Under the pieces are notes generated by a model. It was given only the letters and a program-made list of their open reading frames with translations. It was not told the origin of the DNA and did not search any database. DNA of 64,000 nucleotides from Antitrichia curtipendula (lineage: Eukaryota > Streptophyta > Bryopsida > Hypnales > Leucodontaceae). A program made the position numbers and the translations under genes. The stretch is taken from contig OX579642.1 in NCBI GenBank assembly GCA_951230915.1, positions 7,068,001 to 7,132,000 of the forward strand, written 5' to 3'. This document shows positions 19,831 to 46,649 of this stretch, in pieces (position 1 is the first letter of the stretch; the number at the start of each line of letters is the position of its first letter).

Positions 19831-20766
19831 ATATGTATATAGTAAAAAATCTTGGAAAAATTAGAATTTGAGCCGGAGAACGGACGGAATTCCGGCTTCG
19901 TTCGCCAGACCCTGTCTCCGTCCTGTAGGAGGTCGCGTCCGTCTTCTCCCGCCGGAATTTGTCCGTCGCAGCGGCGCTCCCCCAGCTGCTGATCTCTCGC
20001 AATGTCTGCGACATCTGAGCCGTCCAGCTAGCAGCTAGGGGTTGGTCTCCCTTCGTCACCATCAGCTTGATGCGCTCCCACTTCAATGTCTCAGTTTCAC
20101 TAATTTCGCATTAATGGTGGATTAGAGTTTCGGAGGTGTTCGTCTTGAATTCTTGATTGTTGCAGGCTGAGGTTCTCTAGATTCGTGCCTTGAGTGCGTC
20201 GTTCAGATGCTTGTTTGAAAGCGGCATCTTTTTGCCATTTGATTTTCGAAGTTTTAGCGCGCCTTTTCTGGGTTGTTGTGAAGATTTTGGGGGCGCTGTA
20301 TATCTCTTTTGCATTCACGGCACTTCTGAAACGGTGGCTGCTATTGAATGGCGTCCAGATTTCAGAATTTGGAATTGCAGCTTGCAGAGAGCGGTTGGAA
20401 AATGGCAATCCCAACTCCCAAGGCGCCGGGTGCCTCACAGAATTTAAGCGTCTTGGCGGGTCTTGCTTGCTTCATCTGATCATTCCGTGTTTGCTTGCTT
20501 GATTAGCCTTGCTTTCCTGTCAATTGCGCGCTCTTGGTTTTGATCGACTTGGTGTGTTCAATTTGCTTGTTCCTGCTTTTCGTTGTGCTTATGTTGTGGT
20601 AATCTTCCGCCCTTCCGCGTTGCTTGTGCAGGTTCTGATGGCTCCACGATTGAAGCTTCCTCAGAATTTCAGGGTTCGAGCGTTTGGATCTAGTTGAAAC
20701 ACGCTCGGTGTTGGTAAATACTTGCCAACTACCTGCAGCGTTGATCGCGGCGACTTGGCAAACGAC
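19831..20766 (+). other. GC-richer upstream region of the hAT-derived gene
   Basis: The sequence is markedly less AT-rich than its surroundings and continues into the gene at 20767, so it may be promoter and 5' leader. It has several open frames on both strands without recognisable motifs. Confidence 0.35.
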
Positions 20767-25404: not shown

Positions 25405-25963
25405 TGGTATATTAGCCCTCAATCCCTAAAAATTCAAGGTCTTTTAGAGTTCAAAAACATCATTTCTTTTGAAGTGCCATAGATCTAAATGTTATTAAAG
25501 TATAGAAATCTCAAACATACAATGTTGTAGTGTACGTGTTGTAGATGACATGAATCAAATTTGGAGTCATTTGGATGCATAGATTGCAAGATTACAATGT
25601 TTTAGTGTTGAGAAAGGATGCTGAAATTTTTCCAGCAACACATTTGGTAGTTAAACACTTAAACCTACTCAAATGAAAAAAAAATTTAACTATAAAATGA
25701 TTCAAAACCAACATAAAAAACCCTTGGTTGAAAGAAAAATATCATTCAATTGATTCATTGTGTCTACAAAATGACTTTGAAATGTCAAAAATTAGCAAAA
25801 AGAGGTTGCAAAAACACATGTAAAGCTGGACCTCCATCTACTAAAATGCTTTTCAGTCACTCATAACTTCTTGGATTGATATGAAATTTTAACCACAAAA
25901 ACCAAACTAGTATGCGCAACTTTTCCAAAAAAACCTATAGAAAACAGCACTATATGAAGAAGT
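25405..25963. repeat. Left part of the repeat that received the giant hAT element
   Basis: AT-rich sequence beginning near TCAATCCCTAAAAATTC. It resumes after the giant insertion at 42394 and ends at 42835 in CATTTAGAGGTTAA, so together they form one interrupted element of about 1 kb. A diverged duplicate of the target (GGAGATACAAGCCCCCAAAG) at 42573 aligns across the junction. The last eight bases (25956-25963, GAAGAAGT) are the target duplication. Confidence 0.6.
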
Positions 25964-25973
25964 CAGGGTTGTC
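25964..25973 (+). repeat. Left terminal inverted repeat of the giant hAT element
   Basis: CAGGGTTGTC, followed by subterminal CCGGACGTGACG; its partner is at 42384-42393. Confidence 0.85.
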
Positions 25974-26097
25974 TATCCGGACGTGACGTGGGCTTTTCAC
26001 GTCCGGATGTCATGACTCGTTCGTCCTGACGTGTCACAGCCCGTCGCTGATACTGACGGGACCATCCGGAGCGCGGATGAAGTCTGTCCATTCTACG

Positions 26098-26630
26098 ACG
26101 GCGTCAGGCCGTCTCCTGGACGGTGACTCCGTTGCCAAATGGACATCCGTCTCTTGGACGGAGAGCCCATCTGTGGACGAAGAGGCCGTCCGTTGGACAG
26201 TAACCCGTCCGCTAGACGGAGAGTGGGTCGCTGGACAGTAAGCCGTCCTCTGGACGGAGAGTCCGTCGCTGGACGGTAAGCCGTCCTCTGGACGAAGACT
26301 CCATCGCTGGACGGTAAGCCGTCCGCTGGACAGAGAGTCCGTCGCTGGAGGGTAAGCTGTCCTCTGGACGAAGACTCCGTCGCTGGACGGTAAGCCGTCC
26401 TCTGGACAGAGACTCCGTCGCTGGACGGTAAGCCGTCCTTTGGACGGAGACTCCATCGCTGGACGGTAAGCCATCCCTTGGACGAAGAGCCCGTCTCTGG
26501 ACGGAATTCTCGTCTCCAGGACGGTAATCCATCCTTTGGACGGCCTCTCCGTCCTCTGGACGGGAAACCGTCCCGTCCCCTAGACCGGAATATTACAGGA
26601 CGGGACAGTCGCCCCTTGGACGGTTTCGTT
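26098..26630. repeat. GC-rich array 1 (38-bp palindromic units)
   Basis: Core units of 38 bp at about 26230-26475 each contain two palindromes, GGACGGTAAGCCGTCC and GACGGAGACTCCGTC; flanking units are more diverged. The period of 38 keeps several frames open on the minus strand, giving long repetitive open frames that I regard as non-coding. The position just inside the left end suggests transposase-binding subterminal repeats. Confidence 0.85.
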
Positions 26631-26682
26631 GGCAAGGCTGCGGGTTTAGGGTCCACCCCATCAGCCGTCACTCTGTCTAGCT

Positions 26683-26708
26683 GGGTTTAGGGTTTAGGGT
26701 TTTAGGGA
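26683..26708 (+). repeat. Interstitial telomere-like repeat (TTTAGGG)
   Basis: GGGTTTAGGGTTTAGGG plus a variant unit lie between array 1 and the transposase gene. A second one in the opposite orientation is at 34964-34996. Confidence 0.8.
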
Positions 26709-26720
26709 GGGCTTCAAGGT

Positions 26721-26730
26721 GTATATTAAG
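26721..26730 (+). promoter_or_regulatory. Possible TATA box of the hAT transposase gene
   Basis: GTATATTAAG lies about 220 bp upstream of the chosen ATG, directly after the telomere-like repeat. A plausible acceptor (GGTGCAG) just upstream of the ATG suggests a short 5' UTR intron. Confidence 0.35.
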
Positions 26731-26944
26731 GACTTCTGCCTATTCAAGATTACTTTCCCTTGCTGATTTTGCCTTTCATGACTTGGTTGGAGTACAACCA
26801 TTGCGGTAGAGCGAAGTCCAAGAAGAGTGTGTTGTGGTGGCACTTGTTGTGAGAGCAACAAGTGTTGTTTCTACATCACATTTCAAACAGAATACTAATC
26901 TTTTTTTTGGTGCAGGGGCAGGTAAAGGAGGACAGATAAGAGCA

Positions 26945-29833
26945 ATGGGTGGAGCAAGATCACAGTGGGAACCTTGGTACACACTACGGCCAGATGAAAA
27001 AGTTGTTTGCAAGTTTTGCGAAGCTTTGCTAAGCTATCGAAAGGATCGGTTGCTTTTCCATTTGGGATATAGACGAAATGACACCCTCCTTGGAGTGAGA
27101 GCGTGCACTAAAGTCAATGCAGCCGTGAAGGTAATGTTTTTTAATTGTGGAGGACATATACCTACGGACACTTTGCATGGAACTGGATGCGACGTGGAAG
27201 TGACATCACCATCAACGATACTACCAAGTGTAGTACGTGGTGAGCAACAACATGATGCTTCAATCTCGGCAAACGATGGAGGAGAAAACACTGGGAGGCA
27301 AAGCTCTCAAGTACGATCATCGGAGGCGTCCAACCCTAGTTTGACCCACAGTCGATCAATGAGGCAACTGTCTCTACAAGAAAGACTGAACGCATCAAAC
27401 AAGCAAGTACTTGACAAGAAGTGGGCTAAGTTTTTCTACGAAGCTAATATACCATTCAATGTAGTGAGGCATCCTGCTTTTCTAGATGCAGTGAAATCAA
27501 CATCGGAATCAAGAGTTGGCTACAAACCTCCAGCGTACCATGCACTTCGTACAAAGCTCATAAAATCTACAAAAGACGAAGTGACAACAATTGTAGCAGA
27601 GAAGACAAGGGCACCAATCCACAAATATGGCGTTACAATATGCTCTGATGGATGGGAGAATGTTACACATCAACCATTGATGAATGTCATGTTGGCATGT
27701 ACAAGTGGAGAGGTTTTTCTTGGATCGATAGACACAACAGGCGAATGCAAAGATGCTACTTACGTGGCTAATTGCATGAGTGATTACATTGACAAAGTAG
27801 GGGCACAGAACGTGGTACAAGTTTGTACAGACAATGCAGCAAACATGTTGGCAGTTGGCGCTCTGTTACTTCGTAGATTTCCACACATATATTTTCAAGG
27901 GTGTTCAGCACATGCACTTGACCTTCTACTTGAAGATTGGGGAAAACAAGATTGGATTACAAGTATGGTCAAGAAAGCCAAGTCAATTGTGAAATACATT
28001 CGAACGCATCACATGCCACTTGCAATCTTTCGACGACATTCTCCTAATCACGTTTTGAAAAATCCCGTTCAAACACGCTTTGCTACCATGTTCCTCATGA
28101 TCGAACGTTTGGTGGAGGTGAGGGAAGCGATAGAATCGACAGTCCACGACCCGTATTGGAATGAGTACACGCGGAGATTGGCATCCAATCAAAAGAAAAG
28201 AAAAGCTAACGATGTGCGACGATATGTGCGAACGGATGAATTTTGGAGGAAATGTTTGAACTTTGTGCACATAGTGGAGCCCGTGTTGATTGCTCTTCGA
28301 GAGTTTGATGGCAAGCACCCGTGCTTAGACAAGGCATGGCTTGTAATGAAAAAGGTGGAAAAGCATGTTTTATCTTTGGAGGATCCACCATTTTCATTAG
28401 AGCGGAGGTATGCAATTTCCGCCACCGATGATTTCTACAAGCGCTGGGACATGCTCAGGACAGATTTGCATTACGCTGGGGCTCTATTGAATCTCTTTTT
28501 ACTTGACAAAGTCATGCTAATGGATGATAATGAGGCAAGAGAAGCCATATTGAGAGTTTTGCACAAATTGGCTGTTGGAGATCAAGCATTTGCTTCAGCT
28601 TTGTCTGAGTACCAAGCATTTAGAGATCAGCGAGGCATTTTCGGTGGACTTCCTGATGTAAACGCCTTGAATTTGCAACCTCACGAATGGTGGGACCTTC
28701 TCGGAGCCGGTGCTCGTACACTTGCACCGATTGCCAGAAAGATCCTCGCGCAAGTGTGTTCTGCATCATCCTGTGAACGCAATTGGAGCATGTATTCGTT
28801 TGTCCACAACAAATCACGCAATAGATTGACATCAGAGCATGCTGAGGAATTGGTTTACATTTATACCAATTCCAAGACTCTTAGAGAAAGGGCTGCAGCA
28901 AATCCGACAAGGTGGTATACTGAAAACATGATGTCAGAGGATTCCATGACAGATGAATCTGATGGTCTAGACCGTGGTTCGGTTCTCTCTGATCCCAATG
29001 ATGACGATTCAGATGATAGTTCCAATGACGACAATGAGCCACCGTTTGATAGATTTCGTGGGGCGGGAGGAGTACGTCCTCTAATTGATGCATCCGTATT
29101 TGACTTTGAAGAGGGTGATAACAACGACAATGACTACGAGGGACATCAAGGAAGTCCACCACAAATGCCACAAACGTGGAATGCTGGGCCAAGTGGGGGC
29201 AATACAAACGAGGACGTTGTGGCACCGAGACCACTAAGTCCAAACCCTATGGATGTACAAGTTGATGCCACAATAGAAAGAGATGGTGTTGATGTTCAAA
29301 GAGGACGTAAAGAAGACGTAGTAGTACCACCATCATTGCCCATGAGGACCACCCGTAGTGAAGGGCCCCATCAAGGTGGAGAAGCACATATGGCCCCTCC
29401 AAATCGAGTCTCGGTTGCACAAAGGCAAATGCCAATATTGAAAAATCTACAAATCCAAAGTTCATCAAGGCTGTCTAGTTCCGACGTCCGTCCACACGAA
29501 CCAACTTCGTCGATAGGTACACGATTGGCTGGTATGGTGTCACAGCGTGTGACTAGAAATACGACTTCATTGCGGCCACCTGTACATGCCAATAATCGAG
29601 GGAAGCGTCCACGACCACAAGGTACTACTAGTGAACGTGTAAGTAGTAGAACGCGTAGAAGGCTGAGGAGGGAAGAAGCGGCTTCCCAACCATTTTCAAG
29701 AGAAGTTCAAACAGGAGGACCCAATACAGATGGCATTAATGGACGCAATGGGCCAACGACCTCTTCGGACGTTGTCTTCTATAGCTCGACCACAACGAAA
29801 CCGCAATTCCGAGGCCTCCAGCGAAAGTGGTAG
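26945..29833 (+). CDS. hAT-family transposase (BED-like/DUF659/dimerisation), intact
   Basis: 962-aa enzyme expected to excise and insert the surrounding element by cut-and-paste in the nucleus. CKFC (C22, C25) followed by LLFHLGY forms a BED-like zinc finger at the N terminus. The DUF659 core (about 155-330) contains D235 in ICSDGW and D296 in VCTDNAAN, then GCSAHALDLLLE. The hAT C-terminal region (about 560-660) carries WWDLLG, then E611 in SSCERNWS and the RNRLTSE motif. D235, D296 and E611 fit the hAT catalytic triad. Residues from about 665 form an acidic then basic disordered tail, unusually long for a hAT transposase. The open frame extends upstream of 26945, but that part crosses a polypyrimidine-CAG acceptor and starts at GTG, so this ATG is preferred. 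The frame is unbroken, so the gene may be functional. Confidence 0.9.
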   Translation: MGGARSQWEPWYTLRPDEKVVCKFCEALLSYRKDRLLFHLGYRRNDTLLGVRACTKVNAAVKVMFFNCGGHIPTDTLHGTGCDVEVTSPSTILPSVVRGEQQHDASISANDGGENTGRQSSQVRSSEASNPSLTHSRSMRQLSLQERLNASNKQVLDKKWAKFFYEANIPFNVVRHPAFLDAVKSTSESRVGYKPPAYHALRTKLIKSTKDEVTTIVAEKTRAPIHKYGVTICSDGWENVTHQPLMNVMLACTSGEVFLGSIDTTGECKDATYVANCMSDYIDKVGAQNVVQVCTDNAANMLAVGALLLRRFPHIYFQGCSAHALDLLLEDWGKQDWITSMVKKAKSIVKYIRTHHMPLAIFRRHSPNHVLKNPVQTRFATMFLMIERLVEVREAIESTVHDPYWNEYTRRLASNQKKRKANDVRRYVRTDEFWRKCLNFVHIVEPVLIALREFDGKHPCLDKAWLVMKKVEKHVLSLEDPPFSLERRYAISATDDFYKRWDMLRTDLHYAGALLNLFLLDKVMLMDDNEAREAILRVLHKLAVGDQAFASALSEYQAFRDQRGIFGGLPDVNALNLQPHEWWDLLGAGARTLAPIARKILAQVCSASSCERNWSMYSFVHNKSRNRLTSEHAEELVYIYTNSKTLRERAAANPTRWYTENMMSEDSMTDESDGLDRGSVLSDPNDDDSDDSSNDDNEPPFDRFRGAGGVRPLIDASVFDFEEGDNNDNDYEGHQGSPPQMPQTWNAGPSGGNTNEDVVAPRPLSPNPMDVQVDATIERDGVDVQRGRKEDVVVPPSLPMRTTRSEGPHQGGEAHMAPPNRVSVAQRQMPILKNLQIQSSSRLSSSDVRPHEPTSSIGTRLAGMVSQRVTRNTTSLRPPVHANNRGKRPRPQGTTSERVSSRTRRRLRREEAASQPFSREVQTGGPNTDGINGRNGPTTSSDVVFYSSTTTKPQFRGLQRKW

Positions 29834-30026
29834 TGCAACATCCAATGATGATGGTGAATCCATCGGTGGTACTATAGGTGAAGATGGTGAGGTTCCAGGA
29901 GATAGTGATTACAGGGGGCCGGTGCCTCGACAAGGTCCACTCGAAGAAATGGGTGGTAGTGAACCAATAGTACAAGAAGCAAATGCAAATACTTCTATGC
30001 GCATTCTTAGGCATGGAAGACGTTGA
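29730..30026 (+). other. Overlapping +1 open frame at the transposase C terminus
   Basis: A 98-codon ATG frame overlaps the last 100 bases of the transposase in another frame and runs on to 30026. Its composition (GSATSNDDGESIGG, acidic, low complexity) resembles the transposase tail. It may be the original C terminus separated by a frameshift, an alternative spliced end, or chance. Confidence 0.3.
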
Positions 30027-31352
30027 ATGTTTTTGAAAAGACAATAGGGTCTTCATGTTTTCAAATGCAATGGTTTTAGCGGCTCAATACCTTGCATGTT
30101 GAAATCAGCATTAATATGAAATATGACTTTTGTTCCTTTCATTCTCATAGAACTGTTTACCCCTAAAGTCCCGAAGTCATTACACAAAAAAAAACGCAAA
30201 ACTGTCTTTTCTCTTGCATTTGCCTCAATATACGGAAAAAATGTTTTTTACAACATCTAACCGTAAGATCTTATACTTCACATGTTTTTTATGACTTGGT
30301 AAAAATTTCATGAAGTTTGACCGAATAGATTGAAAGATATTAGCATTCAAACTTGGAAAAACTAGTTTTCTGAATGCTAGCTTTGCAATTTCAGATTAAC
30401 TTTCACTGAGTGTGATTTATGGAAAATTGGGCCTTCGGGGCACTATTGTTTTTGAATTATTTTTTTGAATATTCAAGAATCGAGGTCAAAATTTGAAAGA
30501 ATTATTGCAATTGGAAACTATGTTTGCAATCCAAATAACACAGTGTGGTATTTTTTTCATGTATATTTTCTTTTTTCAAATTTCATTAAAATTAAAATTA
30601 TAAAACTATAATTTGTGTTCATTCATTCAATTATGGCCCCAGTTTCAGATTATTTTCATACATATTATAATTGATAAAATCTGATTTCCACGTTTAGCTT
30701 TATAAAATCACAATAAAATCAATTTTCCATTGAATTTTCTGGAAAAAAAAAGCATAAATAGAAAATGAATTCTTACGTATGTTGAAAAATATTAAAATAT
30801 TATGCTGATTTTCAATAAAAATATAAATTTGGTTTGATAGTCAAATTTAACTTCAAGCTTTTCTTTGTGGTTGTTTACTAGTTTTGGGCATGAAAAATTA
30901 AATAAACAATTGAAAATTTTTCTGACTAGAAATCTCTATTGTTATTTGTACCTCTTGTAAAAAACTAAAAATTTAGAATCTCTTGAATTGTTTTTTCTAT
31001 TTTTACTTATTTATGGCATGAAGTGCAACAAAAATGTTGACAATTACAATTTTGCACAAAACTAATTGAAATTTCTTGTAGTGATATACAATTCAAAGTT
31101 TTTAGTACTAAAGATATAAGATGTGTGTTTACACGCAATTTAAATGATAAAGTTAGGGAAGACAAGAAATTTTTTACAACTCAATGTTTAGGTGAAATAC
31201 GTTTATAACTTTATATAAACCAAAATGAGTACAAAATGCATTGAAGCCACAAAGTGTGCTACATTGCTATGGATGTCCTCAAGCCCATACTATAATAACC
31301 GCATGTACTAAGTGAACACTAATTTTGCAACTACATGGTAATACACTATTAT
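30027..31352. other. AT-rich spacer with a TTAA-element fragment
   Basis: At 30156 TTTACCCCTAAAGTCCCGAA is a family A left end, with homologous interior to about 30375 (AACCGTAAGATCTTATACTT); no right end is seen. The rest is AT-rich without features. Confidence 0.5.
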
Positions 31353-33005
31353 CTAATCTTCATTGCGCACCTGCTCTTCTTGAAGGTCTTGTTCTTTGCG
31401 GGCCTCGCGGTAGCAATCCATGGGTGGTGTCCAAAACGTTGGAGCACCACTTAGACGTTGCACGACTCCAGTCACCGAGTGTCGTTGTAGTGGCTCCGCC
31501 TTGCACAATTCACCCAACATGGTTTGAAACGTACCAAATGCCGTAAGGTCCGGAATCATATCTACATTTCCGCGATCTTTTTTCCATACCTTCATAGCCA
31601 ATTTCCCTATGGAGTATCCGTCCGTGTGTATACTAACATACGGTGGCTTAACCCTGCGAGTAGGAGATGATGAAGTTCCTGTCTCTCCAATCAAGTACAT
31701 CAACTCAGAAGCCACCCACCAACGTTGCGCTCGGGTTGCCTGAAACTTCCTTGGACAATTGAATTGGTAAAGAGAAGGGGTTTCTTCGTTGATGCGGCTA
31801 CCCATTCCCCAATCACATAGACCAATCCACACGGTTCTTCCATCATCATTCGGAAAATGAAGCATAATGTTCTCCGGTGTGATGTCGTTGTGCAATACAG
31901 AGCACTGTTGCACTGCATCCACAATGCAAATCATTGCCCACGCAAGTTCAGTGCGCTTGCGTCTATATGCCATGAGTCGTTTGGCTTCTTGCATTGATTG
32001 GGGAGTTGCATGATAAGCCAACTCCCCTGGATCTCGGTTCTTCTCATCAAGGGTAAACATGGCGCCGAGAGTACCGCCATTCCACCATTGCGAATAACAC
32101 TCCATGGTCATGTCATTTATAGCAAAGAATTTGATGACCCCTGGATGCTCGCACGGACATACCAATGCCTTGATGGACAACTTCTCCCTGGACTTCTTCA
32201 ATTCATCCATGCGCAAGGCTGACTTCCCAGCTAATTCCATATTCTCGGGAATATATTTTGAATTTTGAACACATACTTTGCGCACCCTCCCATGCCCCCC
32301 TTGTTTGCTATGGCCAGACAAAGGAACCACCACCACTCCTCTTTCAAGGAAAACCACTCCTTCTGCAGCTTGTTGACCAAAGGCCAAGTTCTGACTTCGT
32401 TGAAACCACGGAGCGGAACGGATGTTGCTTGAAGACAATCCATGCACTGCATCATGCCACCAATACACCTTCTTGTGCAACAAACTCAATGCTTGTTGTC
32501 TAGGCACTACACTCTTCTCAAAGCCTTTTATTTTTTCCGCAACTTGGGCAAGGTTGAAGATACACGTTTACACTTGTGACTCCAACCAATGGTCGAAGCA
32601 TTCTTTCGTGCGGTCTTCATGCCACTCATCCGCGCTCATTGTTGTTCAGAACATGTGGTGGAACTTTTGTTTAATTTTATCCACTCCCTGTAATCCGCAT
32701 GAGACGTATGTTGAGTTCAACTGCAAAATCAAATACTGATCAAAAAATTCCAACGCCACTTCATGCAGTTTTCGGGTTGCACCCTTGCTTGGCCACTTCT
32801 CTGGATTTGTAGCCTTGTGCCTCCTTCGTTGTTTTTTCTTCCCCTTCGAAGACTCTCCGCCCCCAACAACAGCTACAGACCCTTCTGCAGCTACAGCCTC
32901 TGAAACGGGCTCTGGTGATTCCGCATCCGGGTCCATAACCGGTGCATCTCTAACACCTGTCCACCAATCATCAACCTTTCTCTTCGAGAAATCGCGACCA
33001 GCCAT
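31353..33005 (-). pseudogene. Divergent protein kinase-like gene, two nonsense codons
   Basis: A single frame of 551 codons runs from the ATG at 33005 to the stop at 31353, broken only by TGA (32646-32648) and TAA (32568-32570). The C-terminal 320 residues have protein-kinase landmarks: glycine loop QGGHGRV (about 236-242), lysine K261 in LAGKSAL, catalytic loop HNDITPEN (372-379; HND instead of HRD), DWG (398-400) in place of DFG, and VASEL where APE is expected. The N-terminal 200 residues are charged and unrecognised. All three active-site polar residues (K, D, D) are kept, so the ancestor was probably catalytic. Both stops could arise by C-to-T changes (CGA, CAA). It is transcribed away from the RING-like gene, towards the transposase. 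If a spliced form bypassed the stops it could still function, but no good splice sites were seen. Confidence 0.7.
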
Positions 33006-33196
33006 CGTGACAGTAACAAGTAATCAAAATCAAAGGAATTAGGAATTCGTCTTCCACAAAGTGAAAAACCGCCCCCCTTATTCCTCAAAATAGCCTCTAC
33101 CCAGCACCCGCGCTCGCAAGCAAGGACTGCAACCAATCCAAGACAAGAGAGCATCGTCAGAGCAGGAGAGACTATGGTGAAAGTACCCTAAAAACA

Positions 33197-33206
33197 GTCT
33201 TATATA
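33197..33206 (-). promoter_or_regulatory. Possible TATA box of the kinase-like gene
   Basis: On the minus strand this reads TATATAAGAC, about 195 bp upstream of the ATG at 33005. It is adjacent to the 33223-33419 inverted repeat and array 2. Confidence 0.4.
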
Positions 33207-33222
33207 CCCATTTCACGTGGCC

Positions 33223-33419
33223 GGGGTGAACTGACCCCCTTGCTCGGCCCTCTGGGCCGACCCTGTTTTCCGCACCATTCCTTTTTTGCAAATTTTGAAT
33301 TCATAAAGACCCCTAATTAGTTCAATCACATCAAATAATAACCCTGGATCGGCCGAAAATAGAGGGCTTTTTTTTACATGCACCCCTGGTAAGGCCGAGC
33401 GAGGGGGTCAATCCACCCC
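33223..33419. repeat. 27-bp inverted repeat upstream of the kinase-like gene
   Basis: The left arm contains TGACCCCCTTGCTCGGCC and the right arm GGCCGAGCGAGGGGGTCA; the outer bases also pair (GGGGTG / CACCCC). The arms are 27 bp and about 140 bp apart, between the promoter and array 2. Confidence 0.8.
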
Positions 33420-33429
33420 AATCATTCAC

Positions 33430-33838
33430 GTCGACGGACAGGCCGTCGAGAGGACGGACAGAGCATCCAGGGCCGTCCAAGGCGTCTAGAGGACGGGAAG
33501 GCCGTCTAGAGGGACAAGCCGTCCAGCCCGCGGACTGGCCGTCGAGAGGACGGGAAGGGCGTTCAAGGAGGGAGACCGTTCAGGGGCCAAGCCGTCCAGC
33601 CCGCGGACTGGCCGTCGAGAGGACGAAAAGGCCGTCCAGGGGTGGAGACCGTCCAGCCCGCGGACTGGCCGTCGAGAGGACGGGAAGGCCGTCCACGGGG
33701 GGAGACCGTCCAGCCTGCGAACTGCTTGGCCTGAGGATGGGAAGGCCGTCCAGCCCGCAAACTGGCCGTCGAGAGGACGGGAAGACTTTCGAGAGACGGG
33801 AAGGCCGTCGAGAGGACGGGAAGGTCGTCGAGCGGGCC
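33430..33838. repeat. GC-rich array 2
   Basis: Irregular units are built from GGCCGTCGAGAGGACGGGAA and GGCCGTCCAG...GACCGTCCAG. It shares the GTCC/GGACGG core with arrays 1, 3 and 4 but has a different unit order and length. The repetitive minus-strand open frames across it are artefacts of the repeat. Confidence 0.85.
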
Positions 33839-36354
33839 ATTCAAAACAGTGCTGGCCGAGTGTAATTCATTTCTAATCCTTGTTCGGAGAATTTTTCATT
33901 TATGTGGTTTGGCACTCTCGGACTTGTCAGGACAGGTGTCTTCCCTCTCAATCGGTCATTAGACTACGGTGGCGGGTAGTTTAAGAGTGCTAACTTAATG
34001 TTCACACTTGTTTCAATTAGAGGACAAATAAATACCAGAGATGACATTCAAATGCTCAAAAAACAAGGTTTAATGCTCATTTAGAATGGAATTATATTTT
34101 GTTGCACATAAATAATTAAAAAAACATAGCAAAAACCATAGAAGGTCAAATTGAAAACTTCTTAATGTCAGTCCTAGAATGTTCTATTTGGATGTTCATG
34201 TTAATATTTGATTCATTCTAATTGCACCCATTTTCACGATAGTTGTTGGCATTGGGCAATGTTTTTTTTACAAAAATCCCAGAATCTCGCAATCCCTTAA
34301 AATAATTTATATTCTGTAAGGCTCAAATTCGAATTCAAATGAATTTTATCAATTATAACTCGAACAATTTCACCTTTGGAATTATTGTATTTTGATTCCA
34401 TCCTTCCCTGCATGTAAGTGCACCTGACAATTTAGTATTTTGTTGAATTTTAAACCCTGTCTACACTAATATACTAAACTCAAAGTCTCAAACGTACAAA
34501 CATTCAATAACTTACTAAGCCCGGATCAAATATACAAAGACCAAGACAATAAACCACCCTCTAAATGCTCTAGTTAAAGGTAGTAAGATTAAAACTCTGA
34601 AATGGTTAATTATGAAATAAGTGAAAGACCTCCTAAACAACATATGTCATATGCATATCATTGATTAATGTAAAACATTGTTTTGGCTTTCCATTCATAC
34701 ATTACAGAAAAAGAATGTAGCCCTATACATCTAAACTTAAGAATGTTTTACCTTCTAAAGATATTGTTATGCCGTTTTTTGGTGTCTTCAATATGTTTTA
34801 TAAAACTTTGATTTTAAATCATTAATCTATTTTTTTCCAATTCAAACTTCAAAGACTACATCTCGATCAAGTTTTGCACTTATAATGCCAACTAAAAAAA
34901 GGAAGAACATTTTTCGTGGTTTCCGGTCCATGCTAGGTTTTGAAGTAAATCCTATAGGACAATACCCTAAATCCTAAACCCTAAACCCTAAACCCTCTTC
35001 ACTGTTGCAATTTTAAGAGTATTTGATGTTCAAGTTTATGTAACTATAGCAAATAAGAGTGGATTGGTGTAATAAAATTGAAATGCAACATTGAGTACAT
35101 GAACTTCACATTTTTGTGGTCTCTATATTTTTTTTATGGCTTCTAAATTATAAAGCAACTAACGGTGAATTATTATAGTTTTTCATATGGATTGTTTATT
35201 AATTGCTTATGTAGTACCGTATGTTAACCACTAAACTGGCTAAGTCCCAAGGCCTCTTTTGCATCCTATATCTGAAATAAATTGCCATTTCTATAGTAAA
35301 GAATGTAAAAAAAAAAATGAATGTGTTTAGGACTTTAGGCCTTTAAGGTGCACATCTACTTGTAGTATGTAAGATCTCATACTAGAGTACTAGAGTAGTG
35401 TTCAATTGACCGGAAGAAATTTCACAAACTTTGCCTATATAGAATTGTAGATTGCAAGATATTTACAATAAACTTCAACCTCTGAACGCCCAACGACATC
35501 ATTTAGTGCCAATTTGATGGCAATTCAATCACTTCAATGAGATGGAAAGATTGTGGAAGCGTTCAATTCATTTTTCGGGGACCTTCCATGTTGAGTTACA
35601 AAGTGTATCCAAATGATTTTGTAGTCTTTCCGATATTTGCCTCCGCGTAATTTAGAGTTTAGGAAAAAAAAAAAAAAAAAATATGCTACTTCAGTGTATC
35701 TTGGGAAGTTGTTGCTCCTTAGTCTAAATCTGAAATTTATCCCCCAAATTGATATTTTCTGAGTTTGAGTCTAACTATCAAGCAAAAGTTCATTTTCTCT
35801 AGTTCCTATTTTATGTAAAATCCCCCAACACGACCCTAAAAATGAAATTTTATTATTGCGATTTGCACTTCGAATGTGTTTTTAATGTCTACTACATTTA
35901 GTACATTCTAAATAAATCATGAAATGGAAATTAAGTTTATGCTATGATGGATTCTAATGTCATTATCCTTGTGATATAAGGTAAACCTGCCTATGACAGG
36001 CAGAATGACTGATTTGTTGTATTGCCTTTAGCAAAAATAATCAAATTTTTTCCATACAAAGACACATGTGAGAAATGAAGAACGCAACTGGAATTTGATT
36101 TTTTGGATTAAATATGATTTTTTTTTAAATTTTTGAAGTGTACTGTCCAGTAAGCCCAAAAGAGTTTGTAGACTACCCCAAATCAGCAGAAAATTGTTTC
36201 CATGATGGTCATCTTCCCACTTAAAACAGTCATAACATTTTCTAAGATGGCTACAAGACTTTCTAACATGGACATGACATGAAGAAATAAAAAAACTGCT
36301 TTTTACTAAAAATAAAAAATCAATTTTCAAAAGAATAAAAATAAAATTTTTAAA
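33839..36354. other. AT-rich middle of the giant element with older insert fragments
   Basis: There is no gene. A left end of the TTAA-bounded type is at 35224 (TTAACCACTAAACTGGC). An interstitial telomere-like repeat is at 34964-34996. From 35981 a fragment of the element type described at 55779 begins (GTAAACCTGCCTATGACAGG) and is cut off where array 3 starts at about 36353. An A-run is near 35665. Confidence 0.6.
34964..34996 (-). repeat. Interstitial telomere-like repeat (CCCTAAA)
   Basis: About four units of CCCTAAA, one imperfect, lie in the middle of the giant element, opposite in orientation to the copy at 26683. Confidence 0.85.
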
Positions 36355-36785
36355 GGGCCGTCCAGGACGTTCGGCAGGCCATCGAGAGGATGGGCGGGCC
36401 GTTCCCGACCAGGGACAGGCCGTCGAGAGGACGGGCAGGCCGTCCCAGACCATGAACAGGCCGTCGAGAGGATGGGCGGGCCGTTCCCGACCAGCAACAG
36501 GCCGTCGAAGAGACGGGCACCCCGTCCTTTTGGACGGCCTTTCCGTCCAAGAGACGGGTAGGCCGTCCAAAGGACGAGTATCCCGTCGAGGAGACGGGTT
36601 TGCCGTCCAGGAAACAGGTATGCTGTCCAGGAGACGGGTATTCCGTCGAGGGGACGGGCAATCCGTCGAGGGGACGGGCAGGCTGTCGACGGAACGGGTA
36701 GGCCGTCGAGGGGACGGGCAGGCCGTTGACGGAACGGGTAGGCCGTCGAGGGGACGGGCATACCGTCGAGAGGACGGAAAATCCA
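36355..36785. repeat. GC-rich array 3
   Basis: The roughly 20-bp unit GGCCGTCGAGGGGACGGGCA repeats with variants (GGCCGTTGACGGAACGGGTA), after longer units containing CCGTTCCCGACCAG. Further isolated GGCCGTCC and GGACGG words continue to about 36930. It lies upstream of the RING-like gene. Long open frames on both strands reflect the repeat, not coding. Confidence 0.85.
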
Positions 36786-36996
36786 TCCGTCCAAGTCTCG
36801 GGCGGCGGTGTAATTATTTCCCGAACCTGTCGACGGCGCCCCGAACCCGTTGACGGCGTCCCAACCCTGTGTCGGACCTCTGTGGACGTATCGGCCGTCC
36901 ATTCCAGGGCTGTCCCACGCCTTGGACGGTCTGGATTCGGGGGGGACAGGCTGATGTTATGTTAATTATCCTGCCTAATCGGGTCGGTAATTGGGG

Positions 36997-37004
36997 GGTA
37001 TAAG
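36997..37004 (+). promoter_or_regulatory. Possible TATA box of the RING-like gene
   Basis: GGTATAAG is about 210 bp before the ATG at 37211, the same spacing seen for the other two genes of the giant element. Confidence 0.35.
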
Positions 37005-37210
37005 TAAACTTTTTTGGACAGTTTACGTGCTTCCTCTTTTGAGTTGCACTGTCCGAGCTTGAGAAAGCTTCGCTCTACAATTTGAGGGGAAGTGTTATAC
37101 ATTTGACATTGTTTTGCCACATTTCAGTTGCCTTCACGCAACAGAAGGCAAAGCAAATTGTCATTGTATTCGCATACAGTAACGTGTGTGTCATTTTACA
37201 GGTATCAAGA

Positions 37211-39505
37211 ATGGACGTAGAGGATGTAGCAGGAGGTTCGGGACCTGGAGGTGACCCCCCAAGAGGTTTGGGACTTGGAGGTGACCCCCCAGGAGGTTTG
37301 GTACCTGCAGGTGAACCCCCAGGTAGAAGGAAGAGAGGAAACAGAGCAACCTTGGATTGGGGCACACTTAATGCCGAAGAGATTATGGCAAAGCCTGGGT
37401 GGTTGGAGGCAGATGGCCCATGGACAAGAGTGATATGTCGTCAATATATAGATTGGGCCCACATCAACCGCCATTGGCCACACGACCGGTACGAGGTGCA
37501 CGTGAAATCTGGCGTGGTAAATATTGACCAGTGCCAACATCCGCACTTCAAGAAGAGGATGATTGAAATATCATTGGCACTTTGGGGGGCAAGATCCAAG
37601 AAAGACGGGACACTTTCATTGTGCCAAATGGCATATGCGGAGGTTTTTCTTGGCAAGGATGTGGACTGGAGCAGCTTTTTGGGCAAATCGCGGAATAATA
37701 CATTTCTAAATCGAACTCGCCACATTGCACCAAATCCTACTGTGCCGTTGGACAATGTACCAAATCTTGCCGTGCCATTGGATGATGTCCAAAATGTGCA
37801 AATGGACGTGGTTCCACTGGCAGAGCGTCCAGGGACGGAGTTGATGGAGATAGAAGTTGGTCAGGGCAGCGGTCCAGATGTAAACCAACAAGCTGTGATT
37901 GGTGGAGTGCAAGCTGACGGTGAAGAAGTAATTCGCTTGCGCCAATTAGTACAAACACTGCAAGCAGAAAAAGAAGAAACACGACGACAACATGCTGCAG
38001 TGTTGGAATTTCATCATGCAAGGATGCGGGCCGTTCAAGATGAAAATGTGCACCTCATCGCACGTGAAGCCGAGCTCGTAGAGCGTGAAAGGCGGGTCAG
38101 CACAGACTCAGTTCCACCATTCGATCTTGTAGTGGAACGTGCTACATACGGTGCAGATGAAGACACACCAGGCCCAAGCAATACATCTGAGTTTGTGCTG
38201 CGATCACGATCCACTTTTCCAAGTTCAGAAAGTGCCACATTGGATATTATGCGTGCACGTGCTGAGCGAGTTGAAGCAGAGCTTGGAAGTACTCGCACAA
38301 ACATGGAAGAATTAACAAACGCCATGCGTGCTTTGGAACTTCGTGCCAATAACGCCGAGGCAGAGGTGGCGGTGGTTACTGCAGCTCGAACAACCTTGAA
38401 GCAGACCATGACCGCATTGAGTGCTAAAAATATGCGGTTGGTTCAAAATCCTCAGAAGGAGCAGAGGCTGCTTCAAATGTGCAACATGAAGTTGACATGC
38501 ATCTTAGCGCTAAAAGAGGCTGAGCAAATGCAACGTGAAGTGAGGAGAGTGGCTGCAGAATTCAATGATGGCGGTCAACGTTATTTTGGCTTGACCTCGT
38601 GGCCTCGGGTGGCAGAAATGTTCACCGATGATTTGCCAACGTATAGGGAGAATTCAAGCATTGATTGGAATGCCCGTCCAGACTTGGAATTCCAATATAA
38701 TATCGATCGCCAACGGTACGGGCCACCCAACAACGATGGCATTACGCCACTAGTGTGGCCTTCCGTTCCAGATTTTGTAAAAGATGGAACAACATGTATA
38801 ATGTGCCAACAACCGTTTGGCCCCGAGGGTGGATGGAATCTTGGTACATGTGGCCATCTATACCCCCCCGTGTGTCTTATTCCATACATGGTCACCAGAA
38901 AGAGATGTGCACAATGCAGGGCTCCATTTCATGCACGACTGTACAAAATGTTTGGCCTTGAAGACCACATGCCTCAACATTACGAGTACAATGAAGAAAA
39001 TTTACCGGGCCCCGGTAATAGAGTACATTGGGGGTCCGACATGACATGGCTTTGGAAGTGGGGCCACCACAACCAACACCTCCCGGTAGGAACGGTGGCT
39101 GACATACCATGGACGAGTGACGCCCAAGTGACAGAGGTGATCAGGAGGGTGTTTGGAGACAGTGATCCAGGGCGTCGACTATATTTTGGTCAGATTGCCG
39201 GTGGACATTGGGACCCAGAACGCTTAATTTTTATATGCGCACCACATCCACAACGCATCATGTTTAACTCTCAAGGCCAGCCAGTCGGATTTGAGGGGGA
39301 ATTGAGCTATGAGGAAGAAATGGCGTACACTGAAGACAATACCTTCCATGAGCCAGCCCTCGTGAATGACATTTTTTCCCACTTACATGATAGATACGAT
39401 ATAGAAGCACTTCAACTTCTGAGGACTTTCGAATCGCAAGAAGAACTGCAACGATTTTTGAGAAATAGCATAGCACGCGGCGTTGTAATCGAAGATGTAG
39501 ACTAG
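37211..39505 (+). CDS. Coiled-coil protein with divergent RING-like finger (transposon cargo)
   Basis: 764 aa, intact frame. Residues 8-40 are Gly/Pro-rich repeats (GGDPPGGL type). Residues 50-190 form an unrecognised globular region. About 235-300 and 345-420 are charged heptad-like stretches predicted to form coiled coils. A zinc-finger-like module spans C529-x2-C532, C547-G-H549, C555 and C566-x2-C569. It resembles a RING, but the ligand expected between H549 and C555 is a proline (CGHLYPPVC), so one metal site may be incomplete. About 195 more residues follow without a known domain. The ATG at 37211 follows a TTTTACAG acceptor, suggesting a 5' UTR intron; the upstream open frame starts at TTG. 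It could be an E3 ligase-like or scaffold protein; function unknown. Confidence 0.75.
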   Translation: MDVEDVAGGSGPGGDPPRGLGLGGDPPGGLVPAGEPPGRRKRGNRATLDWGTLNAEEIMAKPGWLEADGPWTRVICRQYIDWAHINRHWPHDRYEVHVKSGVVNIDQCQHPHFKKRMIEISLALWGARSKKDGTLSLCQMAYAEVFLGKDVDWSSFLGKSRNNTFLNRTRHIAPNPTVPLDNVPNLAVPLDDVQNVQMDVVPLAERPGTELMEIEVGQGSGPDVNQQAVIGGVQADGEEVIRLRQLVQTLQAEKEETRRQHAAVLEFHHARMRAVQDENVHLIAREAELVERERRVSTDSVPPFDLVVERATYGADEDTPGPSNTSEFVLRSRSTFPSSESATLDIMRARAERVEAELGSTRTNMEELTNAMRALELRANNAEAEVAVVTAARTTLKQTMTALSAKNMRLVQNPQKEQRLLQMCNMKLTCILALKEAEQMQREVRRVAAEFNDGGQRYFGLTSWPRVAEMFTDDLPTYRENSSIDWNARPDLEFQYNIDRQRYGPPNNDGITPLVWPSVPDFVKDGTTCIMCQQPFGPEGGWNLGTCGHLYPPVCLIPYMVTRKRCAQCRAPFHARLYKMFGLEDHMPQHYEYNEENLPGPGNRVHWGSDMTWLWKWGHHNQHLPVGTVADIPWTSDAQVTEVIRRVFGDSDPGRRLYFGQIAGGHWDPERLIFICAPHPQRIMFNSQGQPVGFEGELSYEEEMAYTEDNTFHEPALVNDIFSHLHDRYDIEALQLLRTFESQEELQRFLRNSIARGVVIEDVD

Positions 39506-39768
39506 ATTGTGTATAACTAGATAGATGTATAGAATTAAATACTGGAAGTTGTACAAAGCGAACGTATGTAATTATGTAAAGCCTTTATTAGTTTACCATG
39601 TACTTCAACGGATTTATAAAATATGTACATTTATTGTTTTATTTCCACCTCGTGTATTGTTGCTTCGCCTTTGTCAATTTTTGTAATCTATTGGACCTTT
39701 TTGTAATAGTATAGAAGAAGCTTGTATGCTTAGATGGTAGGTAAAAGAGTGTTCTATTTTATTTTTGG

Positions 39769-40406
39769 TGAAGCCCTAAAGTCTGAAGTCCATTTTTTGG
39801 CCCAAACCACCCTAAACCACCACTTTTGCTATATTCACCTATGAATTAAATTTTCCAATTTATTTTTTGAATCGAACCAAAGGATCTTGTTCTACACTTG
39901 TCTTAGATGACGTGATAAAAAATTTGTGATGTTTGACCGTATGGATTGAAAGTTATTAGCATTCGAAGTGAAAGAAACAAATTTATTTTAAGAAGTTGCT
40001 AGGATTGCCCGCTCTACAAAAAACCCATAACTTTTCCATTCCTAATCCAAATGGGATGAATGAAAGCCTCCCATTTAAAAGAAAATATAATCCAACTGGG
40101 AAAAAAATATACAAATTTGTATTTCATTTTTTTGTGGATTTCTTTGTCTACCCGGAGTCTTGGACCGCCCAGTGTCCCGATCTCCCCTGTTTGAGGTTAT
40201 TGTGGCATACCCTTTGCTCCTAGGCACCAATTGGAATAGAAATTGTATTATGAATAAACTCATAAGTTTATCTATCATTCCATGTTATCATTCTTATGAA
40301 AAAGTTTTCAAAAGTTTCAGTAAAAAATGAGATCATAGGAGCCTATCGAAAATCCATTTTGTCCCTGGCAGAAAGGACAATGAGAGTATGTTACTTTAGG
40401 GGCTAA
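39769..40406. mobile_element. TTAA-type element (family A) inside the giant element
   Basis: The left end GAAGCCCTAAAGTCTGAAGT and right end TTACTTTAGGGGCTAA are decayed. The interior matches family A (AAAGGATCTTGTTCTACACT, GTTATTAGCATTCGAAGT, CATTTTGTCCCTGG). It probably inserted into the giant element, downstream of the RING-like gene. Confidence 0.65.
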
Positions 40407-41696
40407 GAAATAAAAACAATGGAAATTCTTTACCAAAGCAAGAAATAAGTAACAAATTATTTGATTGCTTCATATTTGATGAAATCTCCTTTAAGTCTTT
40501 AGAATTAAACCAAAAAATAATTCACGTTTTGTAACTTTTGTTCTATTAGTTTTAATGTTTTTTTAGTTGGACTATTGATTGACTACTCTCTCATGTTTAT
40601 TTTTAAATCCAAAGTTTACAAATTAAAGTATTGAACATTTTCCATTTTTTCTCAAATGGCATTATGGAAATCAAATGATCAAAGTTTAATATCTTGCAAT
40701 TGCTAACTTGATAAGGTCACACTACATGAAATTTATTTGAAAATCAATTGAAATAAATGACTTTATGAATGGCGATCCTATACTTAAAAGTCTTAAATTG
40801 AATAGATTCTAATTTTATTTTTTTCATTTCATTTCAAGGTGAACATGGAGAAATGCCAACTTGGATTTTTTTTTGGCAATAATTAGCATAGGGCCTACAT
40901 GGCTACATGGATTAATATTTTTTGAATTTCTTGCCATATAGTCAGTGTAAAATCAATTTAGCAATTTCTCTAATTCGAAATTCAATAACAAACTTTAATC
41001 CCTAGAATCCTAGATGCCCAAGGCATGTTTTGAGCTTCTACAAATTTGCTCTAAATTGAACAAAATGTTAACATTTTGATTAGGTGACTAGACGTATCAA
41101 TTCCAAAAAAATTGTAACCATATAAATTCAAACAAGACATATTAGGGGCTCATAGGTTGCTAAAACACAATAATATCACTTATAGAGTAAAAGATTATAA
41201 TGTTTGAACATGAGGGTGTTAAAACTACAAAAATGATGTGAAGTCTTCCAATCCTCTTTTCAGTTTTCACAAGTAAAATTTAAAAAAATTTAGACCACAA
41301 AAATATGAGGTTAAATTGCCGAACATGTATAACCCCAAACAATTTATGGCTTTTAAAAATATACTCCATATTTTTTTTTAAATAAAAAAAAAAATTTGAA
41401 TGTGATTTTTTCTCCAAGATCTTGTGTTTTCGAGGCACATTTCCAAAAGCTCTCAATGCTACAAGAAGTCAAGATTGCAATGGGTACCCTTGCACAAAGT
41501 CTTGAAACGAAAAATCACTATCATTTATTTTTAAGAATAGACTATTGATGCTATAACTAGACTTCAAGAAGAACTTACTAAAAATAGCAACTTGGATACT
41601 ACTAAAAATAGCAATTTGGTTAGGTTTTATTTAACTTCAAAGTTTTGCCAACACCAGATTTGGGTGCTTCGGGCATTTAAGCCAAAAATCCAATCC
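40407..41696. other. AT-rich spacer with one further TTAA-type left end
   Basis: TTAATCCCTAGAATCCTAGA at 40994 looks like another left terminus; no right end is visible before array 4. No gene is present. Confidence 0.4.
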
Positions 41697-42240
41697 CACC
41701 CGTCCAGTCTATTTTTCCGTCCACAGAATCGTCTAATTATCCGTCCAGATGCCCGTCCACCCGCCTGTCCAATTACCCGTCCAGATGTCCGTCCACCCGC
41801 TCGTCCAATTACCCGTCCACTTACCCGTCCAGATGCCCGTCCACCCGCCCGTCCAATTACCCGTCCACTTACCCGTCCAGATGCCCGTCCACCCGCCCGT
41901 CCAATTACCCGTCCACTTACCCGTCCAGATGCCCGTCTACCCGCCCGTCCAGTTACCCGTCCACCCGCCCGTCCACATGCCCGTCCACATGCCTGTCCAG
42001 TTACCCGTCCACCCACCCGTCCACATGCCCGTCCACCCGCCCGTCCAGTTTTCCATCTACATACCCGTCCATCCCGCCCGTCCAGATACCCGTCCACACA
42101 ACCGCCCCCCCTTCCGTCCACATGCCTGTCCAGATGCCCGTCCACCCTCCCGTCCACCCGCCCGTCCACATGGTCGTCCAATTTTCCGTCCAGATACCCG
42201 TCCATCCCGCCCGTTCCGTGCCCGTCGACGGAAGCTCGCC
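41697..42240. repeat. GC-rich array 4 (12-bp units in a 48-bp higher-order repeat)
   Basis: CCCGTCCA plus four variable bases repeats every 12 bp for about 500 bp, roughly forty units by length. Groups of four make a 48-bp higher-order repeat. The core is strongly strand-biased, unlike the palindromic array 1. It lies just inside the right end of the giant element. The Pro/Arg-rich and Val/His-rich open frames on the plus strand are products of the 12-bp period. Confidence 0.9.
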
Positions 42241-42383
42241 GCCCGTCAGCGAAGAACGTCCATCCATTTCCGTAGTTTTCATCCTCTGTCAACGGTTCTC
42301 GTCCAGATTTCATCCTGACGGACGCCGGGGTTGAATCCTGACGTCTGTCCGGACATGCTGACGGACGGACAGGACGTGACGGG

Positions 42384-42393
42384 GACAACCCTG
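42384..42393 (-). repeat. Right terminal inverted repeat of the giant hAT element
   Basis: GACAACCCTG, the exact complement of 25964-25973, preceded by GGACGTGACGGG and followed by GAAGAAGT (42394-42401). Confidence 0.85.
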
Positions 42394-42835
42394 GAAGAAG
42401 TAACAAGCCACCAAAGTTCATTATAATCCAAAAATGTTGGGATTTTGAACTTTGAATTGCTCCCAAACATTCAAAACAACTTGGATTGATATAAAAAATT
42501 TAGTACAATAACAATAATTAAACCTCAAGAGAACATAATACAACAAATTTGATTGAAAACAAACATTGAATGAAGGAGATACAAGCCCCCAAAGTTGTAG
42601 CCATCAAATGCAATTTGGTGAACTCGCATTGAACCTCTGAACTTTGATTGGCTAACACAAAATCAATACATTTTGGATTGATTTGAAAATTTTACCACAC
42701 CAATTAGAAGAGAGAGTTCAAATTTACCAACAACTTTTATTGAATTTGAACATTGTATGCAAAAGTTACAACACTTTGAATTGGACTACAAATTTTTTAG
42801 GACACTTTTGGTCCCCTAGGACATTTAGAGGTTAA
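42394..42835. repeat. Right part of the repeat split by the giant element
   Basis: It continues the interrupted host repeat from 25963 and ends in GGACATTTAGAGGTTAA, a TTAA-type terminus. It includes the repeated TTGGATTGAT word also seen on the left side. Confidence 0.55.
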
Positions 42836-45134: not shown

Positions 45135-45746
45135 TCAAAGCGGAATTTCGCCACTATCGACAATGACGACCTTCCGCTTGGGCGTCCCCCCCGAGGAGCC
45201 TTCCGCCTCCACTTTGTACACGACATCAAGTCCACTCAACACCTTCCCAAAGACGACATGGCGTCCATCCAGCCAACTCGTCTTCGCAGTACAGATGAAG
45301 AACTGGGAGCCGTTGGTGTTGGGCCCGGCATTGGCCATGGACAGGATCCCAGGACCCGTGTGCTTGAGCTTGAAGCTCTCGTCGGCAAACCGACTTCCGT
45401 AGATAGACTCCCCACCACGGCCGTTCCCTTGCGTGGTATCTCCCCCCTGGATCATAAAACTCGGGATGATGCGGTGGAACACGGAGCCCTTGTAGTGCAA
45501 GGGTTTGCCACTCTCCCCAACGCCTTTCTCCCCCGTGCAAAACGATCGGAAATTCTCCACCGTCTTTGGCGCCGCTCTCCCGTACAGACCGATCACAATG
45601 CGACCCGTAGGGGTGGAGTCGATCTCCACGTCGAAGAAAACCTTGTGAGTCACCTCGTCGTACCCCTTCCGCTCCGATTTCTTGGCGGAAACGCTCACAG
45701 AAAACAAAAGCAGGGCCAGCGCGGTGAAGAAAATCGTCCTCCCCAT
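45135..45746 (-). CDS. ER-lumen cyclophilin (peptidyl-prolyl isomerase), cyclophilin B type
   Basis: 203-aa single-exon gene. Residues 1-21 form a signal peptide ([13 protein letters not shown]), directing the protein to the secretory pathway. The complete cyclophilin fold follows: [46 protein letters not shown] (catalytic R in FHRI), [31 protein letters not shown], the [12 protein letters not shown] motif with the cyclosporin-binding tryptophan, and [11 protein letters not shown] at the end. It catalyses proline cis/trans isomerisation during folding. Plant homologues of this type normally have several introns, so an uninterrupted copy is unusual and could be retroposed, although no clear poly(A) tract follows it. 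No ER-retention tetrapeptide is present. Confidence 0.96.
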
Positions 45747-46649
45747 CGCGATCTCAAACTTTTTTTCTGAAGAAAAAAGAAATCCAAACCACTGAATCTG
45801 CTACAAATTGACAAAAACTCTGTTACACTACAAACTGGCAAACTGTGCTACAAAGTGGCAAAATGTGCAAGAAAGTTTGGAAGTGCGAGCGTGTGGCGAT
45901 GGCGGTAGAATTGGTTCCTGTCTTTAGTTGCCGTGGTTCAGGTGGTTGCGTCCGGATGATCAACGGGGCAAGTGCCGGATCTTCTTTGAGGATCGCATGA
46001 AGGATGCCGGCTTCCTTGGTAAGTTCCGGATTCGGTACCCACACTATTTTAGTAAGAGTGTTTTTCTTTTTCTCGTCTTTTCTTTCTTCGTTCAGTTTTT
46101 CCGGGTCTTTTTCTTTTTCCTTTGGTTGTTAATTTTGGTTTATGAACATTTTCTTTGTTATATCCACCGCATAGCAAATTAGCAATGTCATTGTTTCTTA
46201 ATTTTTATATGTGTCATGTAAAAGAGTGGATTATAGTACTAAGAATAGATGGATAGCTTTAGTTCGGAGGTATGAGTTAGTTATTCCGTAATTTAAAGAT
46301 TAAAAAATCATTTGTAAGTTCACACTTATTAGTTCTTCGACAAGTTCTTTGTGCACTCTTTCACAAGTTACTGATAACATGTTTTATCTACGTTTTGAAC
46401 AAACCCAATTTGGTCACCCATTTTCAACCAATTTAAGACATAAACATAAGGACTACATGATCAAAGCATAAATCCCAACAAGTAAGTAAACTCATCAATG
46501 TAAAATAAAAAAAGTGACAAAGTTTTAATTGGGGTTTTAAAAATAAGGAACTTTGAAGTTGTTAGGGCTTATATATTCACTTTCGTTCACCACCTTCTGC
46601 CTTCACATTCTGCCTACATCTCAAATAGCAAAACAATTTTGTTTTGATC
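45747..46649. other. Cyclophilin upstream region
   Basis: A GC-richer patch at 45880-46030 has an open frame on each strand and a GTAAG donor-like site near 46020. It could be a first exon of another transcript on the plus strand, but no downstream exon was found. The rest is AT-rich. Confidence 0.35.

Follow-up and report, generated by a model that had tools for sequence, protein, structure and literature searches.

A stretch of 64,000 nucleotides from the moss Antitrichia curtipendula (contig OX579642.1, positions 7,068,001 to 7,132,000; the whole stretch is called the window) carries at 25964-42393 a unit of 16,430 bp, in which genes for a hAT transposase, a protein kinase and a RING-like protein are enclosed together with four GC-rich arrays. 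Units of ∼16.3 kb were found at many independent sites in the genome, every one bounded by terminal repeats and an 8-bp duplication of its own, and all three genes are constant constituents of the unit. The element in the window is very probably a decaying member of an autonomous-type hAT family with three genes and a high copy number. Its ends and genes are as follows (TSD, target-site duplication; TIR, terminal inverted repeat):

25956-25963, no strand: left 8-bp TSD GAAGAAGT, exact
25964-25973, + strand: left TIR CAGGGTTGTC, exact 10 bp
26945-29737, + strand: hAT transposase gene (Pfam DUF659 2.4e-40, Dimer_Tnp_hAT 3.4e-9)
29738-30023, + strand: transposase C-terminal tail, which has left the reading frame in the window copy
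31353-33005, − strand: protein kinase gene, single exon, full length, convergent with the transposase; two in-frame stops in the window copy
37211-39505, + strand: coiled-coil RING-H2-like gene, frame open; in the window copy proline replaces one histidine zinc ligand
42384-42393, − strand: right TIR, reverse complement of CAGGGTTGTC, exact
42394-42401, no strand: right 8-bp TSD GAAGAAGT, exact

Ends, genes and state of the window copy

In the whole window CAGGGTTGTC has two exact matches, which are the two ends of the element; GAAGAAGT has five, and the octamer by itself is therefore not rare. Once the insert and one GAAGAAGT are taken out, the joined flank aligns over the junction, at 65.6 % in 160 columns (E 4e-12), to a neighbouring repeat of the right flank. 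This bears out the empty-site argument; the repeat into which the flanks continue is degenerate. An earlier note, made from the letters of the window alone, had described the perfect TIRs, the identical flanking octamers, the continuity of the flanks without the insert, and the kinase-like gene, RING-like gene and four GC-rich arrays inside; all of these were confirmed.

The transposase carries the DDE acids, a CxxH motif and a C-terminal dimerisation domain. Residues D235, D296, C320, H323 and E611, which we take to be catalytic (DDE acids and CxxH), were invariant across 11 sequences. With transposase P0098 as query, no family nearer to P0098 than the window type was found in the genome (best 47 %; 42 of 1700 candidates scored). 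The nearest named relatives of the window kinase and transposase proteins are from Ceratodon purpureus. Scans of the transposase, kinase and RING alignments against viral contigs, and of the kinase against genome contigs, yielded no relatives.

Across 14 kinase homologues, K260, E278, N381, D400 and G402 were invariant and D376 nearly so, the catalytic Asp being replaced by Asn in one of the 14. The residues expected of an active kinase (Lys, alpha-C Glu, catalytic-loop Asp/Asn, DxG Asp) are present in the predicted protein, the window copy itself having two stops. With a strict pattern, the catalytic loop was intact or near-intact at 24 of 30 kinase loci, Asn taking the place of Asp at two of the 24. 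The structure model of the kinase matches kinase structures (Foldseek, best E 2e-8); its closest PDB sequence matches are weak.

For the RING protein, long helices that we interpret as coiled coils are predicted in a low-confidence model, together with a RING-H2-like domain; at a mean pLDDT (predicted local distance difference test) of 49 the model is too poor for use. RING profile matches are weak. All eight C/H zinc ligands are present in the copies C2, C4, C6 and C218 and one is missing in the window; the histidine ligand lost there is kept as histidine in those four copies.

The earlier note had called the transposase intact and had taken the unbroken transposase and RING frames as a possible sign of a recent or maintained element. 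A hAT transposase is indeed there, but a frameshift near 29737 puts its last ∼100 residues into another frame, which runs to 30023; the open frame is 1071 aa long in 29 of the 49 copies listed (by eye) and 1007 aa in the window copy. The RING frame is open with a zinc ligand lost, and the kinase has two stops, so this part of the note did not stand. From its sequence the window copy is a decaying member of its family; because of the frameshifted transposase tail, the two kinase stops and the lost RING ligand it is probably not active.

Copies of the unit in the genome

An assembly of 400,189,583 bases in 303 contigs was searched. At least 79 kinase matches (79 of 1427 candidates scored; the query was a kinase relative), at least 59 main RING matches (59 of 2341) and at least 49 transposase matches (49 of 1811) were obtained; pooled with the other lists of matches, they group into at least 134-151 clusters, according to the gap permitted, and lie on 11 contigs. 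The genes recur in a fixed arrangement: a listed kinase lies convergent within 6 kb of 29 of the 49 transposases, at 1570-1628 bp in 28 of these, whereas in the control, a listed kinase of like orientation no more than 14 kb away, the count was 0 of 49. For 36 of the 59 RING matches a listed kinase lies divergent at 4.0-6.2 kb (none is listed for 23). Among the 49 listed transposases, 24 have the RING gene in place and 18 have both kinase and RING.

Three copies were read along their length. The C2 copy is 16,291 bp long (duplication 7/8), and in 15,978 aligned columns it is 95.7 % identical to the window element; C4 (16,295 bp, duplication 2/8) was aligned in pieces at 93-96 %; the C6 copy has a 3.4-kb insert in the transposase, and its left end lies beyond the stretch read. 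When the ends of ten further copies were determined, eight had both TIRs, with lengths of 16,219-16,541 bp and end positions that agree with the alignment of the ends of the window element; seven of their duplications match at 8/8 and the eighth at 7/8, every sequence being different. Two were without one end. In total, the duplication was 8/8 in nine, 7/8 in three and 2/8 in one of the 13 copies checked at both ends, a set that excludes three family copies with one end missing from the stretch read. Twelve of the 13 combine short TIRs (exact or with one mismatch) with duplications of 7/8 or 8/8, each of distinct sequence, at lengths of 16.1-16.5 kb; single mismatches occur in the TIRs at both ends of the copy at C2:55.77M and at one end of a C8 copy. 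The earlier note had proposed, as proof that the extra genes belong to the element, that they should recur where it had inserted independently; they do, and copies with different duplications carry the genes in one order.

A complementary view was obtained from the right ends, of which the best 40 of 533 candidates scored were used, a set biased towards good matches. Expected distances from the right end are ∼2.4-3.0 kb for RING, 8.8-9.9 kb for the kinase and 12.2-13.0 kb for the transposase. Within narrow distances (by eye), listed RING genes were found at 29 of these 40 ends, kinases at 25, transposases at 18 and at least one gene at 32; with wide limits the counts were 29, 31, 25 and 39 (any gene). 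Seven ends have listed genes only farther in and one has none listed. With genes at 39 of 40, short gene-less derivatives are not common among the best ends. The earlier note had named copies with these ends but lacking the extra genes as a way in which its reading could fail, and this did not come about.

Two neighbouring copies in inverted orientation, C8:23617593-23634044 and C8:23644564-23660629 (L061-L064, L025, L026), have duplications of 7/8 and 8/8 and lengths of 16,452 and 16,066 bp (by hand from the coordinates). They share no matching flanks. Their identity is 99.9 % over 3.7 kb round the kinase but falls to 87 % at the left ends, a pattern suggestive of gene conversion between the two. 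Close inverted pairs of this kind are also listed on C1, C2, C3 and C5. Two RING copies 171 kb apart (C9:6194572 and C9:6365810) have an equal stop tally, a hint of segmental duplication.

Subfamilies, selection and motif arrays

Thirty kinase loci fall into family A, with 24 loci at 94-97.5 % DNA identity to the window kinase, and subfamily B, with six at 82-87 %. Each of the 24 family-A loci has a transposase tail ∼1.3 kb 3′ of the kinase. The subfamily-B copy C218 carries a left TIR, transposase (full 1030 residues matched), kinase and RING in the same order, with an array upstream of each; another, C7, carries a left TIR, transposase and kinase, the two genes both with stops. At the expected right side of the C7 element, about C7:3728800-3732400 (L057-L058), long open reading frames (ORFs) look by eye like another mobile element.

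Nonsynonymous (dN) and synonymous (dS) divergence between the window and C218 copies gave dN/dS values of 0.33 for the transposase (dN 0.101, dS 0.302; bootstrap 0.27-0.42), 0.27 for the kinase (dN 0.110, dS 0.409; 0.20-0.37) and 0.51 for RING (dN 0.242, dS 0.475; 0.41-0.64). Kinase dN/dS was 0.49 within A, 0.36 within B and 0.34 between A and B (150 pairs). All three genes have been under purifying selection since the two subfamilies split. The earlier note spoke of a cargo-bearing hAT lineage; the lineage, with its genes recurring in independent insertions, stands, but "cargo" undersells genes of which both the kinase and RING are under purifying selection between subfamilies. Between the window and C7 copies, dS of the transposase and kinase agree (0.32 and 0.34).

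In protein databases, kinase and hAT matches were found three times on contigs of exactly equal size (6480, 15563 and 27639), compared with 0.18 expected from jittered lengths; two of the three pairs have 36-43 % identity to the window proteins. These equal sizes indicate that the kinase-hAT partnership is older and present in other organisms. An equal-size kinase-RING pair (2748) was rejected as too short to contain both genes.

Upstream of all three genes, and at both ends of the element, lie arrays of GACGG/CCGTC motifs, the limits of which are approximate:

25964-26640: array 1, left end and upstream of the transposase, 38-bp tandem units rich in GGACGG/CCGTCC
26719-26731, + strand: TATA-like box of the transposase, −224 from ATG; same position in C4 and C2
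33195-33209, − strand: TATA-like box of the kinase, −201 from ATG
33400-33900: array 2, motif array upstream of the kinase gene
36340-36900: array 3, motif array upstream of the RING gene
36995-37009, + strand: TATA-like box of RING, −213 from ATG
41600-42393: array 4, right end, 12-bp/48-bp units rich in CCGTCCA

The hexamer CCGTCC occurs 62 times within the element compared with four times in the left flank and once in the right. Array 1 serves as left end and as transposase upstream region together. In the copies examined the arrays lie at about −960 to −150 from ATG, and the two internal arrays stand directly upstream of kinase and RING in the window, C2, C4, C6 and C218 copies. At all 24 family-A kinase loci, the 1.5 kb upstream holds 10-31 motifs and the downstream side none; five of the six B loci have 7-18 upstream. 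The TATA-like box of the kinase is placed at −201 to −208 in all six copies examined, and that of RING at −213 in the window, C6, C4 and C2 and at −155 from an extrapolated start in C218; the result for the C6 transposase is disregarded as an artefact caused by the insert there. It is strongly indicated that every gene stands behind a GACGG-type array, mostly with a TATA-like box, and that the same motifs occupy both ends. Changes of C>T or G>A make up 442 of the 712 private changes in three aligned copies, a bias like that of methylated DNA. Three telomere-like units of the TTTAGGG type were noticed at ∼26680-26710, where array 1 has ended and the transposase gene has yet to begin.

Outside the element, three ORFs in a row at 20698-23705 look by eye like a broken second hAT-like gene and contain a tandem repeat (39 bp × 5.4) at 22560-22770; no convincing Pfam match was found for this row. 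Outside the element, too, genes that by eye look like ordinary plant genes lie at 6121-8100, 45135-45800 and 58458-60287; they are chitinase-like, cyclophilin-like and PER1-like.

Proposed explanation and comparison with known systems

In the explanation that we propose, the transposase would use a zinc finger near its N terminus to bind the GACGG arrays, on the model of Ac transposase and its AAACGG repeats, and a single protein would both join the element ends and control all three promoters; drawn by analogy with Ac, this has in our estimate an even chance of being right. The kinase and a RING-type ubiquitin ligase would modify the transposase or host silencing or repair factors, so that the element persists; our guesses at targets are that the transposase would be phosphorylated and that host silencing or repair factors would be removed via ubiquitin. 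That the two are accessory proteins helping the element to persist is put forward tentatively, at less than even odds. Equally tentative is the combined picture, in which an old hAT lineage across several moss-like genomes would carry a signalling module (kinase and RING ubiquitin ligase), co-controlled with the transposase via the GACGG arrays and acting on host silencing or repair, from which a high copy number would follow for a 16-kb cut-and-paste element.

Several observations weigh against a family with three maintained and co-regulated genes. Of the matches listed, 26 of 79 for the kinase, 15 of 59 for RING (by eye) and 11 of 49 for the transposase are free of stops, in tallies that leave frameshifts uncounted, and neither partner is listed for 14 of the 49 transposases. 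The right end of the C218 copy was not found, and the C7 copy had no RING match within the stretch read. The dS values to C218 are unequal, with disjoint bootstrap ranges for the transposase (0.25-0.36) and RING (0.40-0.56), for which exchange between elements, or an earlier split of the RING copies, may account. Among four family copies dN/dS was 0.69-1.12 for RING, 0.59-1.11 for the transposase and 0.33-0.64 for the kinase; RING is without constraint among them and the least constrained of the three genes, values that are as expected for drift of copies after insertion. The equal contig sizes that place the partnership in other organisms do not cover RING. Upstream of the transposase of two B copies no TATA-like match was found, and the B kinase locus L008 is nearly arrayless (one motif upstream). 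CpG decay in three copies was 46/636 in the arrays and 81/1236 elsewhere (p 0.63), with no sign that the arrays are protected; an anti-silencing version of the control model thus did not pass its first test.

The stops in many kinase and RING copies and the RING ratios among the four copies would also fit a hAT that captured a host kinase and RING gene, both useless to the element and amplified by hitchhiking, and plant DNA transposons may carry host genes. Such passengers are unlikely here: dN/dS between window and C218 is well under 1 for all three genes and the A-B kinase ratio is 0.34 over 150 pairs, kinase and hAT matches at 36-43 % identity share equal-size contigs in other organisms, and each gene has an array of its own. 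That nested insertions or an assembly join turned a normal hAT into an odd 16-kb interval was rejected and is scarcely to be credited; nested insertion does occur in the family, as in the C6 transposase, but length and gene order are equal at independent sites with their own duplications. The recurrence of the full-length unit elsewhere in the genome also removes the concern about an assembly join voiced in the earlier note.

A closer contest concerns the arrays, which might have a structural role only, as subterminal repeats that grew in number and spread into the interior by copying, and might share no regulatory function. We regard this as a real possibility, somewhat short of even: tandem repeats expand readily, unit sizes vary between arrays (38, 20, 41, 12, 48 and 57 bp) and CpG decay is not reduced in them, but in five copies the two internal arrays lie directly upstream of the extra genes, and at the 24 family kinase loci they lie on the promoter side only. 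If the reading of a high-copy hAT that keeps a selected kinase and RING gene is true, the hAT superfamily, a model for cut-and-paste transposons, can build multi-gene elements, and hATs may act through proteins of their own on transposition or on the host. With an array in front of every gene, expression of the entire element may be tied to binding by the transposase.

In the literature on large or multi-gene hATs and on moss hATs, the coverage of which was incomplete, no element with kinase or RING genes was found. To our knowledge hAT elements encode a transposase alone, and Ac agrees with this. The maize hAT Ac/Ds has 8-bp duplications and short TIRs, its transposase binds AAACGG repeats in subterminal regions, and Ac is 4.6 kb long with a single transcript and one transposase (PMC3260210, in part). 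The window family is like Ac/Ds in its 8-bp duplications, short TIRs and subterminal repeat motifs, and unlike Ac in its length of 16.3 kb, its three genes and its arrays upstream of internal genes too. Typical hATs have 8-bp duplications and TIRs of 5-27 bp (PMC12506042, in part), and the window family has both. The likeness to Hermes, a housefly hAT, lies in the transposase, the profile of which matches the C-terminal part of the Hermes transposase (E 3e-9). Hermes is a single-gene element.

VANDAL belongs to a superfamily different from hAT. In Arabidopsis, the anti-silencing VANC proteins attach to motifs repeated in tandem within VANDAL elements, and methylation is lost as a consequence (PMC5735166, in part). 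Like VANDAL, the window family is a multi-gene DNA transposon with noncoding tandem repeats of a short motif, those of VANDAL being fast-changing and bound (PMC5735166). In a VANC-type system the arrays would be expected to be spared from methylation; those of the window family are without reduced CpG decay, an indirect test; no VANC relative turned up in the family, no search aimed at VANC having been made.

The nearest precedent in size is ToxhAT of wheat-infecting fungi, a 14-kb class II element with an extra gene, present in single copy with a TA duplication and now placed by its authors as likely Tc1/Mariner (PMC12506042, in part). It resembles the window family in carrying an extra gene and, as likely Tc1/Mariner, provides no hAT precedent. 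Among DNA transposons, PIF/Harbinger uses a second element-encoded protein (PMC2836001, in part). The window family differs from gene-capturing (Pack-type) elements in that the same genes, in one order, recur across its copies and C218 in place of differing pieces. En/Spm and MuDR also use a second element-encoded protein; these and PIF/Harbinger are other superfamilies, and their second proteins are not known to be a kinase and RING. From the giant Starship elements, which use a tyrosine recombinase, the family is set apart by its mobility gene, a hAT transposase accompanied by TIRs.

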